DNA from: Duodenibacillus massiliensis
Lineage (GTDB): Bacteria; Pseudomonadota; Gammaproteobacteria; Burkholderiales; Burkholderiaceae_F
DNA length: 64,000 bases
Direction of reading: 5' to 3'
NCBI RefSeq assembly: GCF_900128485.1
Contig: NZ_LT635858.1
Span: 54,860 to 118,859 of the forward strand
This document shows, piece by piece, positions 32,490 through 36,891 of this stretch. Under the pieces are notes generated by a model. The model was not told the origin of the DNA. It saw only the letters and a list, made by a program, of their open reading frames with translations, and did no database searches. Made by a program: the position numbers and the translations under genes. Within the stretch, counting starts at the first letter, position 1, and the number at the start of each line of letters is the position of its first letter.

Positions 32490-33518
32490 ATGAATTCTAC
32501 TCAAACAGCAACAACTGATGGGTTCGGCCGCAGCGTGCAGATCACCAACGGGCGGTTTGTCGCCACCATGATGACGGGCCTGCTGCCCGTCGCCGATATG
32601 GTCTCCCGGATTCAGCTTTTGGCCCCCTTTGAGCAGGCGTTGGAGCAGACACACAAGCCGAAAGACCGCAGTCTGTATTCCGCCGGAGCCATGTTTCGGC
32701 AGCGTGTTTTCGCACATATCTGCGGATTTGAGGATTTGGCTGACCACGACGTCATCACAGAAGACGAAGGCTTTCTTTCCGCACTCGGGGTTAATGATGC
32801 TGCAGGCAGCTCAACTCTCTGCAGATTTGAAAACTCAATAACCCGACACGATCTTGATCGCCTCAACTGCTGTTTTTGGACGCACTGCTTCGGGCCAACC
32901 GAAAGCATCGCATCTTTTCCAGGGCCGGGGCCAGGAAGACTCCGGTACTCACCACGACCGGCATGGCTCACCGCGCCATCGGTGAACTCGTTAATTACAA
33001 AGCTAAGTCCTGGAAGCAGGAACGTCGGCTCATCGCCCGACGACAGCATGACGCTCGTACCAACCAAATGGATCTGCGCCTGATTCAGACCAACATCAAA
33101 CATGTCAAAAAAGGGGGAAGACGGCTGGTACGGAAAGTATTCCGAGTACGGCGCTGCCAAGCTGTATGAAGACCTTTACTGCGGTCGGGCGGCTGACTGC
33201 GAACTCAATATCGCAGATTTTAAAACGGATTGCTTTGGCGGCAGAGCTAGTTCAACGCGCTTCTGCACCAACGGCTACCGCATGATATTGGGCATGGTGA
33301 CATTGCTGGTGCTCAAGTTGGCCCGGCACTATCTCTTTGGTGTTGTGAAGGAAAGCGCGAAAAAAGCTGTACGTGTTTCCATTGCCCGGCTCAGAGCCAC
33401 TGTCATCCTGGTGACTGCTAAATGGAGCTCAATGATAAACACCGTCCGACTGACGCTGCCCTCTGTTTTGCCGGGAGCCCGCGAGCTGGGAGCGCTTTTC
33501 AAGATACCGATACTCTGA
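32490..33518 (+). pseudogene. IS1380-family transposase, internally deleted and frameshifted
   Basis: The N-terminus (MNSTQTATTDGFGRSVQITN then GRFVATMMTGLLPVADMV) runs through DLADHDVITEDEGFLSALG to about 32900, a good match to IS1380-type N-termini. The frame then changes twice: residues LTTTGMAHRAIGELVNYKAK in one frame, then EYGAAKLYEDLYCGRAADCE and NGYRMILGMVTLLVLKLAR in a third. The C-terminal part with the glutamate-containing region is recognisable, but the central DDE catalytic portion is largely missing. Full-length relatives are about 430-460 residues. It cannot encode an active enzyme. Confidence 0.8.
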
Positions 33519-33640
33519 CGCCTGAGCGTCCCCGACTCACAAAGCGTGCCATCGGGGGTTGGGGGGGGGCAATGCACCCAAAATCGGGCTCCGCGTGAAT
33601 TTTTGCCATGATGTCCCCAGAATTTTCTCGATTTTTGATC

Positions 33641-33680
33641 TTGCACCAGCCTGCTTTTCTGAAAAATCAAGCTGGTGCAA
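33641..33680. repeat. 40-bp inverted repeat next to a solitary IS end
   Basis: TTGCACCAGC (33641-33650) and GCTGGTGCAA (33671-33680) are exact reverse complements around a 20-base AT-rich loop. The unit interrupts a stretch that otherwise resembles the right end of the IS at 35691-36700. Confidence 0.75.
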
Positions 33681-33688
33681 AATGCAGG

Positions 33689-33709
33689 CTAGTGCTCCGG
33701 GAGATCAGG
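33689..33709 (+). repeat. Solitary IS4/IS1634-type right terminal repeat
   Basis: CTAGTGCTCCGGGAG-A-TCAGG matches the right end of the IS at 36678-36698 with one difference. No transposase of that type remains to its left. It marks a former second copy of the IS on the other side of the exporter-regulator pair. Confidence 0.75.
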
Positions 33710-33748
33710 GGGAGGGCGCGCGCTCGATGCGGCGCCCTGCCGCAAGCA

Positions 33749-34783
33749 TCAGCCCGCGCTCTTTTCGGGCTTGGGAATGATGGTGCCGGCCACAAGGCCG
33801 CGCACGGTGCCGATGGCCGCGGCGAGCCACACGAGCATCAGGAGCCCAAAGAACGCCTGCGCGAGATGGCTCAAAAGCAGGAGGTTGGCGAGGTTGCTCA
33901 GGCGCACGGCGAGCACCGTCAGGGCGCCCACCGGGAAGACGAAGGCCCACCACGACAGCGCAAAGGGCAGTTCGCCGCGCACGTAGTTGCGCACGGTCAT
34001 GGCGATGCACAGCAGCAGCCACCAGATCGAGGCGCCCATGAAGCCCGTCGAGACAAGGATGCCGTAGGTGAGGGCGCCCTCATTGCCGATGGCGTGCAGC
34101 AGCGAGAGGAGGCTCAGCGGAATGACCCCCAGAGGCGCCAGATGCACCCAGAGCGTGGGGGTCATCTTGCCGGTGATGCCCGGGCGCAGGAAGTGTCGCA
34201 GCATCGACATGGCGAGCAGCCCGATGTACATGAAGCAGCCCGCACCCAGGCCGAGCATGTTGATGCCGAAGTAGACCTCGCGCATCAGGCCCTCGGCGTG
34301 GGCCGCCAAGCCTGCGCCCGCCACCGGAATCACCACCAGGCCCACGGCCGGGATGAAGTGCGCGGGCGTGACCATCTCGAGCTTGAGCTTGTCGAGCGTG
34401 AAGAGCCGAAAGAGGATGATGTAGCTCGCAAGGAACGTCCCCGCGGTGCCCGTCCACCACAGCGCGCCCACGCAGACAGGGTCGATGCCGCGAATGCTCC
34501 ACTGGCCCGCCATCACCAGCATAGCGATGGGGAAGGTGGCGTAAAAGCTCCCTTCGACGGGGTGCGACATCGTCTCAAACACGCGCCGCGGGAACATGAG
34601 GATGCGCGCCAGGCCCGCCAGGCCCAGCACGACCATCATGACGATGGCCAGATAGTGCAAAACGTCGGCAACGATCTGCCAGGGGGTGCCGGCAAAAAGA
34701 AGCCATGCGGCCAGACTGGCCACCGAGGTGCCCATGACGGAGGCAAACCAGCCCGGCGCCATGGTTTGGATGAAGTGCTTCAT
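33749..34783 (-). CDS. TDT/SLAC1-family anion transporter (TehA/Ssu1-like)
   Basis: A 344-residue protein with ten predicted helices, with no signal peptide. Motifs typical of the voltage-dependent anion channel/TDT superfamily are APGWFASVMGTSVASLA at the start, FYATFPIAMLVMAGQWS in the middle and LPFALSWWAFVFPVGALTVL late. Family members include TehA, plant SLAC1, dicarboxylate carriers and fungal sulfite exporter Ssu1; the substrate cannot be read from the sequence. The ArsR-rhodanese gene lies 59 bases upstream on the same strand, which suggests a sulfur anion or thiol-related compound. Codon use (GCG, CTG, CTC rich) differs from the neighbouring chromosomal genes. Confidence 0.85.
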   Translation of the reverse strand: MKHFIQTMAPGWFASVMGTSVASLAAWLLFAGTPWQIVADVLHYLAIVMMVVLGLAGLARILMFPRRVFETMSHPVEGSFYATFPIAMLVMAGQWSIRGIDPVCVGALWWTGTAGTFLASYIILFRLFTLDKLKLEMVTPAHFIPAVGLVVIPVAGAGLAAHAEGLMREVYFGINMLGLGAGCFMYIGLLAMSMLRHFLRPGITGKMTPTLWVHLAPLGVIPLSLLSLLHAIGNEGALTYGILVSTGFMGASIWWLLLCIAMTVRNYVRGELPFALSWWAFVFPVGALTVLAVRLSNLANLLLLSHLAQAFFGLLMLVWLAAAIGTVRGLVAGTIIPKPEKSAG

Positions 34784-34842
34784 GATGAACGTGATGTTTC
34801 AATGAATGAGAGAAATCGAAGTGACGGGCGGCGCGGCTTGCC

Positions 34843-35571
34843 TCAAGCCGGCTGCTCTTCTTTTTCAAGCAGTTCGTCCCTGCCATCACCGCGCCAGTCC
34901 ATGACGCCCTCGCGGATCACCAGCAGCTCCCGGCCGTACTCGGCAAAGACGCGCGCCGCGCGCTGCGCAAGAAAGCAGTAGGAGCCCCGGCAGTAGGCCG
35001 CGCACAGCTTGTCGGCGGGCAGATCCGGGAGCATGCGCTCGATGCATTCAAGCGGCATGCTCTTGGCGTTGGGCAGATGCCCCGCGTCGAACTCCTCGCG
35101 CGGGCGCACGTCGATGAGCACCAGATCACCCGCGTCGGCAAGCTTTAAGGCCGACTCGAGATCCACGCCCGCGTCCTCCCGCGCCTGGGGCTCCTCGTGC
35201 TCGCCGCCTTGCGCGTTGCTCGCCGCGGCGACTTCTGTGACGCGCGCCGTCTGCTGCAGGACCACCACCAGATGCAACACCTCAGTCGAGGAGATGGCAT
35301 ACTGGCGGAAGCGCCCGAAGCGGCGCACCGACACAAGGCCCGCCTGCAGCAGCACCTTCAGATGCGCGCTCACGTTCTTGTAGTCGATCTGCAGAAGGTC
35401 CGTGAGCGTCTCGACCGTGCGCGGGCACTGCGCGAGAAACTCCAGAATCTCCAGGCGCACGGGCTGGCTGCACGCCTTGCCCACGCGGGCGACCTGCTCG
35501 TACAGGGCGCGCTTGTGCTCGCGGGGGTCTTCAGGCAGAGGGTACACAAGAGGTGAATCGGTCTGCGGCAT
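34843..35571 (-). CDS. ArsR-family repressor fused to a rhodanese domain
   Basis: A 242-residue two-domain protein. Residues about 25-95 form an ArsR/SmtB winged helix (ACSQPVRLEILEFLAQCPRT, then NVSAHLKVLLQAGLVSVRR). Residues about 135-235 form a rhodanese with LIDVRPREEFDAGHLPNAKS and the active loop CRGSYC (C194, C199). The classic ArsR metal site ELCVCDL is absent. Two cysteines in a CxxxxC loop suggest sensing of persulfide, thiosulfate or another reactive sulfur species, by analogy with BigR/SqrR; this is inference. It probably represses itself and the downstream exporter through the palindrome at 35616-35635. GC-rich codon use suggests acquisition. Confidence 0.88.
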   Translation of the reverse strand: MPQTDSPLVYPLPEDPREHKRALYEQVARVGKACSQPVRLEILEFLAQCPRTVETLTDLLQIDYKNVSAHLKVLLQAGLVSVRRFGRFRQYAISSTEVLHLVVVLQQTARVTEVAAASNAQGGEHEEPQAREDAGVDLESALKLADAGDLVLIDVRPREEFDAGHLPNAKSMPLECIERMLPDLPADKLCAAYCRGSYCFLAQRAARVFAEYGRELLVIREGVMDWRGDGRDELLEKEEQPA

Positions 35572-35615
35572 GGGTGAACGGGTCCGGGGAAAAGAGAAAA
35601 ACGTGCTTTGCTGAT

Positions 35616-35635
35616 ATTCTAATAAATTTTAGAAT
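35616..35635. promoter_or_regulatory. Palindromic operator upstream of the ArsR-rhodanese gene
   Basis: ATTCTAA and TTAGAAT are perfect inverted arms around a 6-base TAAATT centre, 45 bases before the regulator start. AT-rich palindromes of this kind are typical ArsR-family binding sites, so autoregulation is likely. Confidence 0.7.
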
Positions 35636-35768
35636 GAAGTGAAACCCCCGGTTGAACCCGAATTTCAAGGCAAAAAAGGGGCCCGTCTCCACCCAAACTC
35701 CCGGCCTGCTAGATCAGATCCGGCTTGACCTTTGTCAACACGCTGATTAATAAAGTTTTTTGCCTTTG

Positions 35769-35810
35769 AAAATCCTGCATTTTTCGGTCGCCCGGAATGC
35801 AGGATTTTTA
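35769..35810. terminator. Hairpin at the left end of the IS
   Basis: AAAATCCTGCATT and AATGCAGGATTTT form a 13-pair stem flanked by A and T tracts. Such hairpins shield transposases from outside transcription and stop readthrough. Confidence 0.75.
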
Positions 35811-35894
35811 TTTTTGCTATAATAGATCATACTTTAATTAATTTGATCTATCACGCCGCGAATCACAGATAAAGACGGGAAGCTCTGGTCGTTA

Positions 35895-36676
35895 ATGTCC
35901 TACAAATCTGGTATCGGCCGCGTTTACATCCGCGCCTATCGCAATGACTGGGATCGTCAGAAGAAGCGCTCATTTCCGGAGGCGCGCATGCAGGTCGGTC
36001 CCTTGCAGCCCGACGGCATGGTCAGGCTCTCAGCAGAGTTTCGGGAGCACTTTCCCGCTTACGCTGAGGGTGATTGGTTCTGGTCGGATCATGAGCTTGT
36101 CAGCGAGGAGCAGTTCAGAGAGGAGTTCCCGACAACCCCTCAGCCCAAAGACATCAGCTGGAGCGATGAAACGATCCGCGTGGGTCTGACTTTTGCGGCC
36201 TGGACGACTGCTCAGAGAATGGGAATCCTCGAAGATTTGACGAGGATTTTTGGCAGAGAGGGATGGGCTGCTGGGCCATTCGCACCAATGCCATTGACGA
36301 TCCCTTTGAGACCAACAGCATCTATCGTCAGCGCGACATTATTGAAAAGGGCTTCAACCAACTCAAGAACGAGGTGGATGGCTCAAGGCTGGAGGCCACG
36401 GAAAGCGCCTACAGAGGCAAGCTCTTCATCTACACGCTGGCTCAGTCCTTGCGCATGAACATGCTGGTGACGGCGCGCGAGGCGCAGAGGGCTAATAAAG
36501 ACCTCAAAGTACCCGAGGAGTCCTTGAGCAAGCTCATCGGTCAGTTGGGGAGTATTCAGGCCCGAAAGCACCGCTCGACAGATACGTTTGTAACGGGAGC
36601 GGTGGCGAAGAAGCGCCGGGACCTGCTCGCGCTTCTTCGCATTGAAAAACTCCCGAAGTACTTCGATCGTTTTTGA
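35895..36676 (+). pseudogene. IS4/IS1634-type transposase, frameshifted and internally deleted
   Basis: The N-terminal part (MSYKSGIGRVYIRAYRNDWD, then RFFGxW-like WSDETIRVGLTFA) runs in one frame to about 36260. The C-terminal part, in another frame from 36263, contains IYRQRDIIEKGFNQLKNEVD. In it Y21, R24, E28 and K35 have exactly the Y-2-R-3-E-6-K spacing of the IS4 superfamily, and the glutamate is the last catalytic DDE residue. The DD portion between them is missing; family members are about 500-570 residues and only about 250 remain. Upstream in-frame codons from 35847 resemble protein sequence but lack a start. Confidence 0.8.
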
Positions 36677-36735
36677 TCTAGTGCTCCGGGAGTTCAGGTC
36701 TTAACGACAGGAACCAAAGAATATCTGCCGGCAAG

Positions 36736-36814: not shown

Positions 36815-36891
36815 TGGTGGCGCATCACGGATTCGAACCGCGGACACAAGGATTATGATTCCTCTGCTCTAACCGACTGAGCTAATGCGCC
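36815..36891 (-). tRNA. tRNA-Met (anticodon CAT), elongator type
   Basis: A complete 77-base tRNA with encoded CCA. Acceptor arms GGCGCAT and ATGCGCC pair and the T loop is CGGTTCGAATCCG. The loop ATCATAA gives CAT. The first acceptor pair is G-C, so it is not initiator tRNA; elongator Met is preferred over lysidine-modified Ile2 by overall similarity to other betaproteobacterial tRNA-Met, but the two are hard to separate by eye. Confidence 0.85.

Follow-up and report, generated by a model that had tools for sequence, protein, structure and literature searches.

What might a repressor fused to a rhodanese domain and an anion channel do together, set side by side between relics of insertion sequences (IS) in a bacterial chromosome? 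The question arises in a 64,000-nucleotide stretch of Duodenibacillus massiliensis DNA (the window, contig NZ_LT635858.1, positions 54,860 to 118,859), in which an initial annotation had noticed two same-strand genes, encoding an ArsR-rhodanese regulator (34843..35571, minus strand) and a SLAC1/TDT anion channel (33749..34783, minus strand). Our analysis suggests that the two genes form a self-repressed stress operon, in which a sulfane-sulfur-sensing autorepressor would control a channel for a sulfur oxyanion. We put the probability of this whole chain at roughly 0.58, a figure that allows any sulfur oxyanion as the cargo.

The regulator gene, the first transcribed of the pair, encodes 242 amino acids and, like the channel gene, has an intact reading frame. 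Pfam searches revealed an ArsR helix-turn-helix (PF01022, 42.3 bits) and a C-terminal rhodanese (PF00581, 45.6 bits), which correspond to a winged helix at residues ~16-120 and a rhodanese domain at 139-227. With its CRxxxC loop, the protein belongs among the ArsR-rhodanese regulators, and the channel matches PF03595 (SLAC1; 166.7 bits, cut-off 27.9), which bears out the annotated identity of both genes. The winged helix is of the ArsR type to which SqrR and BigR also belong, as judged from PF01022 and from the presence of SqrR (6o8o) among the Foldseek matches; the score in the BigR model was 27.9, under a cut-off of 155. An AlphaFold2 model of the regulator, built on four sequences, reached a mean predicted local distance difference test score (pLDDT) of 75.8, a moderate confidence that informs the monomer alone. 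The closest solved fold in structure comparison was 3gw2, a fragment of a Mycobacterium bovis regulator.

The rhodanese loop, CRGSYC as annotated, comprises residues 194-199 (codons at 34975..34992, minus strand); its two cysteines, C194 and C199, are proposed to form the pair that senses sulfane sulfur. An alignment of 74 regulators, window included, revealed cysteine at both equivalent positions in every sequence. The sole other column with four or more cysteines, at residue 47, holds one in 24/74 sequences and is Ala in the window regulator; no partner column for it was found among the 74 regulators. With the conserved cysteines confined to the rhodanese loop (74/74, next best column 24/74), a SqrR-type cysteine pair was rejected. 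Because the family has no SqrR/BigR-type pair in the ArsR fold, the simplest inference is that the sensing dithiol may have moved from that fold to the rhodanese loop. C194 sits between a strand and a helix in the AlphaFold2 model, and rhodaneses likewise place their active-loop cysteine between strand and helix. Elsewhere, a second regulator copy broken by stop codons was seen at G047:C26:52319-52986.

The genes that accompany the regulator family were surveyed at 73 loci with a usable regulator (13 regions from one search and 60 hand-picked places in the order); the set includes three Duodenibacillus loci and excludes the window, which entered the 74-sequence cysteine count alone. Neighbours were sought with nine reference proteins only, and 19 of the 73 loci have less than 4 kb on one side, which makes the neighbour counts lower bounds. 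Within 4 kb of the regulator, dioxygenase-like genes occurred at no fewer than 43 loci, MFS genes at 40 or more, DsrE genes at 37 or more, TauE genes at 16 or more, and fatty-acid-hydroxylase genes at 11 or more; a SLAC1/TDT channel occurred at three. A dioxygenase, DsrE, or TauE gene was near the regulator at 60/73 loci, and the family is often found with genes of sulfide detoxification. The reference labels were backed by Pfam for DsrE (PF02635), MFS (PF07690), TauE (PF01925), and the fatty-acid hydroxylase (PF04116). The dioxygenase-like metallo-beta-lactamase (MBL) protein matched 3tp9 (E 2e-40), 3r2u, and mitochondrial ETHE1 (4chl, E 3e-26) in the PDB, ahead of glyoxalase-II, which suggests, by homology only, that this neighbour is a persulfide dioxygenase. 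An independently annotated Janthinobacterium plasmid places an ArsR gene beside DsrE, MBL, and MFS genes. At seven of the 16 TauE loci, TauE lies within 1.5 kb of the regulator and no dioxygenase accompanies it (three of the seven have DsrE and one a fatty-acid hydroxylase). These TauE-without-dioxygenase loci are the nearest parallel to the regulator and channel of the window. A dioxygenase and a SLAC1/TDT channel occurred together at none of the 73 loci, and no relatives of the dioxygenase query (E <= 0.001) were found in the four Duodenibacillus genomes that carry the pair; two other Duodenibacillus genomes gave partial matches. The fatty-acid-hydroxylase neighbours (L056, L057, L059, L201, L204, L209, L225, L226, L231, L237, and L239) are divergent from the regulator in 10 of the 11 loci, and several of these loci have an upstream site of the ATTCAA type.

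The loop cysteines, as a CX4C pair, could also answer to another thiol-reactive signal, such as arsenite or another metal, peroxide, or electrophiles. Many ArsR proteins sense metals, and the regulator passed the NF033788 metalloregulator model (63.2 against 55 bits). However, the rhodanese is retained family-wide with the cysteine pair at its active loop, and, of the genes sought with the nine reference proteins, dioxygenase-like, DsrE, and TauE genes are frequent neighbours, and we regard a signal of this other kind as quite improbable.

The palindrome that the initial annotation had proposed as the operator (35616..35635) is a perfect 7-6-7 repeat, ATTCTAA-N6-TTAGAAT. Allowing two mismatches gives no other match in the window (0.04 expected), and the exact sequence occurs once in the 2.35-Mb assembly. 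It falls on a promoter-like site, TTCACT-16-TAGAAT (35616..35643, minus strand), the only one on either strand of 33500-35800 (0.1 expected from shuffles); the -10 box lies inside the predicted operator, as do 14 of the 16 spacer bases. In the family the site takes the form ATTC-N12-GAAT, which was found in the 120 bp upstream of the regulator at 27 of the 73 loci exactly and at 23 more with one mismatch. Shuffling in 10-bp blocks gave 0.15 exact and 4.8 near sites, and random segments of the same loci gave 0.24 and 1.94. When spacers of 4 to 19 were compared, a strong excess appeared at 12 alone, with a smaller one at 4 (5 exact, 20 near). The SqrR form, ATTC-N8-GAAT, had no exact and two one-mismatch sites at the 73 loci, and a SqrR-type spacing was rejected (0 exact at spacer 8 versus 27 at spacer 12). 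The ATTC/GAAT half-site is familiar, and we know of no report of the 12-bp spacing. Both half-sites are exact upstream of all three other Duodenibacillus pairs. A larger regulon was also rejected: the assembly holds one exact site, one at two mismatches, and 19 in total at up to three mismatches, versus 32 for a reversed control.

The channel, second gene of the proposed operon, has 344 residues and was modeled by AlphaFold2 with a pLDDT of 94.6 and a predicted template modeling score of 0.93. Foldseek gave TehA (20% identity; TM-score 0.86, normalized by target) as the best match, and TehA and plant SLAC1 are the closest solved folds; this fold and PF03595 place the protein in the SLAC1/TDT family. 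It scored under the cut-off of the tdt subfamily model TIGR00816 (180.1 against 237.25 bits) and far under that of the TehA equivalog model (45.5 against 342). Against PDB sequences the channel by itself had no match, and a six-sequence profile found SLAH3 as a weak match. In this alignment, SWWAFVFP of the channel pairs with SWWAYTFP of SLAH3, and W278-P284 are invariant across 40 sequences; the second Phe of the channel motif is presumably the gate. On the strand opposite the channel gene, an open frame of 457 codons (window 33608-34981, plus strand) is probably a by-product of the G+C-rich third positions of the channel gene.

The cargo is less certain than the signal. Sulfite or thiosulfate in particular is given slightly less than even chances, and a hint toward sulfur comes from the surroundings of distant channel relatives: TusA and rhodanese genes lie ~3-4 kb from one on a Chlorohelix plasmid, and by eye a TauE-like gene adjoins a Thermococcus relative and a TusA/YedF-like gene stands near a Thermosyntropha relative. 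Alternatively, the sensor half of the proposal may be right while the channel exports chloride, nitrate, formate, a C4-dicarboxylate, or an oxyanion of the tellurite or selenite type, for pH or charge balance in sulfide stress. The closest folds, TehA and plant SLAC1, are anion channels, the NCBIfam family is named for tellurite resistance and dicarboxylates, and some distant relatives adjoin genes without a sulfur link. The regulator family, on the other hand, sits with sulfur genes, including the seven TauE loci without a dioxygenase, although this bears on the cargo only indirectly; taken together, a cargo other than sulfur appears unlikely.

The initial annotation had staked its proposal on the pair being conserved elsewhere, which proved true within the genus and, in the genomes sampled, not beyond it. 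The adjacent pair was found in four of 10 Duodenibacillus genomes (G000, G008, G004, and G009); one (G002) has the channel alone and five have neither at the search cut-offs used. The flanking genes differ among the four, and the 59-bp gap between the genes in the window becomes ~12 bp in G008, ~32 bp in G004, and a 4-bp overlap in G009. A second, different SLAC1 protein is encoded elsewhere in G006, G004, and G008. The co-occurrence count that had been proposed was run on two samples. Among 399 genomes of the order (SLAC1 E 1e-15, regulator E 1e-25), 107 have SLAC1, 94 the regulator, and 32 both, a weak excess (25.2 expected, P 0.049). The two genes share a contig in seven of the 32, and are adjacent in three of these, all Duodenibacillus; the other 25 carry them on separate contigs, and it is unlikely that a contig break hides an adjacent pair in these. 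Among 398 genomes of the phylum (SLAC1 E 1e-15, regulator E 1e-40), 76 have SLAC1, 47 the regulator, and six both, with adjacency by coordinates in the genome of the window alone. Adjacent pairs outside Duodenibacillus were thus found in neither the order (399) nor the phylum (398) sample. A contig search, covering the best 80 of 102 confirmed channel relatives, placed a full regulator alongside in L060-L062; L069 has a short ArsR-like open reading frame (ORF) only, and L110 a weak partial regulator match only.

On plasmids, ArsR-rhodanese-like genes occur in 172 of 72,556 records (E 1e-20); Lactiplantibacillus (45), Leuconostoc (23), and further lactic acid bacteria account for many of these. 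Among the organism names listed, ten for the regulator and ten for the channel, there is no overlap, and the three plasmid channel matches that were opened (H16, H17, and H19) had no ArsR-annotated gene within 5-6 kb. Wide conservation of the pair was accordingly rejected, and because the order and phylum samples show adjacency in Duodenibacillus only, the pair looks like a genus-level invention or cassette rather than a general circuit. At L069:4296-5887 (Anaerolinea), the single-domain ArsR-like ORF, 131 codons long, lies two genes upstream of the channel relative in the same orientation, and the gene in between may be thioredoxin-like; this is perhaps an independent ArsR-channel pairing. 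In two further loci a membrane protein with weak similarity to cytochrome bd subunit I was noted (L046:5571-8656; L048:10576-12021, with a weak cytochrome c match in L048). The bd-like gene is divergent beside the regulator-channel pair in G009, where another membrane protein and a small CxxCH-motif protein follow, and in G019 it adjoins the channel. The bd-like protein matched no Pfam family above cut-off, and the L048 protein had no PDB match.

The pair lies among ordinary chromosome genes (TatC, a PRA-PH protein, and MlaC), with mobile-element remains on both sides. The solitary IS right end noted at 33689..33709 (plus strand) was recovered as a direct repeat of 36678-36698 (20/21 bases, 95%), and the 21-base pattern has no further occurrence in the assembly at three or fewer mismatches. 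With three mismatches the 14-base core occurs five times in the window versus 4.35 by chance, so that the argument depends on the two exact copies. The element on the right, which had been taken for a complete IS, turned out to be an IS1634-family relic (35691..36699, plus strand). Its 26-nt terminal inverted repeats are imperfect (77% complementary), only positions 358-482 of the 483-position transposase profile are matched, and the matching ORF is in another frame than the preceding one, which matched no family. On the left, two ORFs of an IS1380-family transposase relic (32490..33518, plus strand) match the N and C parts of NF033539, and also PF13701, the second just under cut-off. An intact composite transposon was rejected, as there is one solitary end and one relic, not two intact IS copies of one kind. 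A tRNA-Met gene (window 36815-36891) directly adjoins the IS1634 relic, and its site is a possible insertion hot spot.

The base composition of the two genes is foreign to the window. G+C at third codon positions (GC3) is 0.898 in the transporter and 0.842 in the regulator, compared with a mean of 0.700 (standard deviation 0.029, maximum 0.756) in 33 window genes picked by hand; the reading of the pair as acquired therefore holds. The excess of GCG, CTG, and CTC codons that had been ascribed to both genes divides between them: the GCG fraction is raised in the regulator alone (0.59, against 0.40 in the transporter and up to 0.52 in the others), and CTG plus CTC exceeds the others in the transporter alone (0.84, against 0.71 in the regulator and up to 0.71). 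Because the locus in G008, which holds the best relative of the pair, has 65.5% G+C and two measured neighbours with GC3 of 0.78 and 0.94 (the pair itself has 0.82 and 0.89), the pair probably reached the genome of the window from a higher-G+C relative. Together with the palindrome, the predicted operator over the promoter, this composition indicates that the pair is probably a compact acquired sensor-plus-exporter unit, as first described. A pair of genes between IS relics might instead be a dropped-in, decaying fragment, whose members were inherited side by side on a mobile piece without any regulatory tie, a view to which the genus-restricted adjacency in the samples also lends itself. However, both frames are intact, and the pair with its operator half-sites persists in four genomes whose regulators share 45-59% identity and whose flanking genes differ, which renders mere decay very improbable.

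Several observations weigh against a sulfur-responsive operon. The adjacency comes from four genomes of one genus, G002 keeps the channel without the regulator, and in the Sutterella wadsworthensis-like G019 the two genes are on different contigs and the regulator has no good operator (best site, three mismatches). The regulators of the Duodenibacillus pairs have diverged faster (45-59% identity) than the channels (74-85%), and the G004 pair has no raised GC3 (0.57 and 0.66). At 13 of the 73 regulator loci, three of them the Duodenibacillus loci, there was no dioxygenase, DsrE, or TauE gene. The loci behind the operator count are related, and thinning to less than 60% regulator identity leaves 12, with five exact, three one-mismatch, and three two-mismatch sites. 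As for the channel, its sequence points to no single substrate, the name of TIGR00816 refers to tellurite and dicarboxylates, and distant relatives adjoin glycolysis and fluoride genes, a LysR gene, or, by eye, hydrogenase genes (L066), none of which has a link to sulfur.

Sulfur sensing by the regulator nevertheless gains evidence from the cysteine pair (74/74), the dioxygenase-like, DsrE, and TauE neighbours, and the family-wide operator, and is, as a step by itself, judged likely. In the proposed mechanism, a regulator dimer would bind ATTCTAA-N6-TTAGAAT over its own -10 box and block transcription of both genes. As sulfane sulfur accumulates in the form of persulfide or polysulfide, the rhodanese-loop residue C194 would accept sulfur and form a di- to tetrasulfide bridge with C199, upon which the dimer would change and leave the operator. 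Release by sulfur is proposed because the cysteine pair is conserved and because SqrR and CstR offer an analogy. Synthesis of the channel would follow, and a toxic sulfur oxyanion, likeliest sulfite or thiosulfate, would exit down the membrane potential. In the genome of the window, where no dioxygenase was found, the channel would take the place of TauE. A bolder proposal, which we advance tentatively and think somewhat doubtful, is that these proteins constitute a distinct, widespread class of sulfane-sulfur repressors, with the dithiol in a fused rhodanese that would take up sulfur enzymatically and a 20-bp ATTC-N12-GAAT operator, and that in Duodenibacillus the circuit was rewired from an O2-needing dioxygenase to a SLAC1-type channel. 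Gut Duodenibacillus is taken to live where oxygen is scarce. If this is true, the rewired channel would be a bacterial sulfite or thiosulfate efflux channel.

ArsR-rhodanese regulators are common (94/399 order genomes and 172/72,556 plasmid records), and the cysteine pair, operator, and neighbourhoods make the sensing question directly testable. The Duodenibacillus pair is a very simple form, with one sensor, one channel, and one operator, and could help to show what bacterial SLAC1/TDT channels carry physiologically. Among the titles and abstract openings listed by a literature search, with most subscription papers outside its coverage, there was no paper on the signal of ArsR-rhodanese fusions, and none of the titles listed for SLAC1 or TehA together with sulfite dealt with a bacterial TDT protein that exports sulfite.

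Among known systems, TehA and SLAC1 channels share their fold (TM-score 0.86 to TehA) and PF03595 with the window channel, which is only 20% identical to TehA and scores under the TIGR00816 and TehA-model cut-offs. ArsR-rhodanese proteins are represented by the mycobacterial Rv0324/Mb0332 regulators. The Mb0332 helix-turn-helix fragment (3gw2, 2kko) is the best solved match of the window regulator; we take Mb0332 to be the Rv0324 orthologue with the same ArsR and rhodanese domains. The accessible part of a report on Rv0324 describes effects of over-expression and names neither a sulfur signal nor a TDT partner (PMC4916473). SqrR, BigR, SoxR, and YgaV, which repress sulfide and persulfide responses, share the ArsR fold and the dithiol sensing proposed here from sequence, SqrR and YgaV the ATTC/GAAT half-sites, and YgaV also the proposed self-control. 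According to the portions available of the papers cited, the SqrR/YgaV operator is ATTC-N8-GAAT (PMC9774250; see also PMC10451225 for repressors of this type), SqrR senses via C41/C107 and BigR via C42/C108 (PMC9774590), such pairs lie in helix 2 and in helix 5 or a C-terminal extension of the ArsR fold, and RexT recognizes ATTCG-N15-CGAAT (PMC8960804). The window regulator differs from SqrR, BigR, and YgaV in that its conserved pair is in the added rhodanese domain, its operator spacing is 12 rather than 8, and its score falls short of the BigR model. In Acinetobacter baumannii, the FisR and BigR operons (PDO, SQR, TauE, and YeeE) are described, in the part of the source at hand, as coupling a sulfide-induced dioxygenase to a putative sulfite/thiosulfate exporter (PMC7315123). 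The regulators there are different, and the genome of the window, in which no dioxygenase was found, has a SLAC1-type channel beside its regulator. Set beside these systems, the D. massiliensis pair appears to be a variant of an established type of sulfide-stress circuit.

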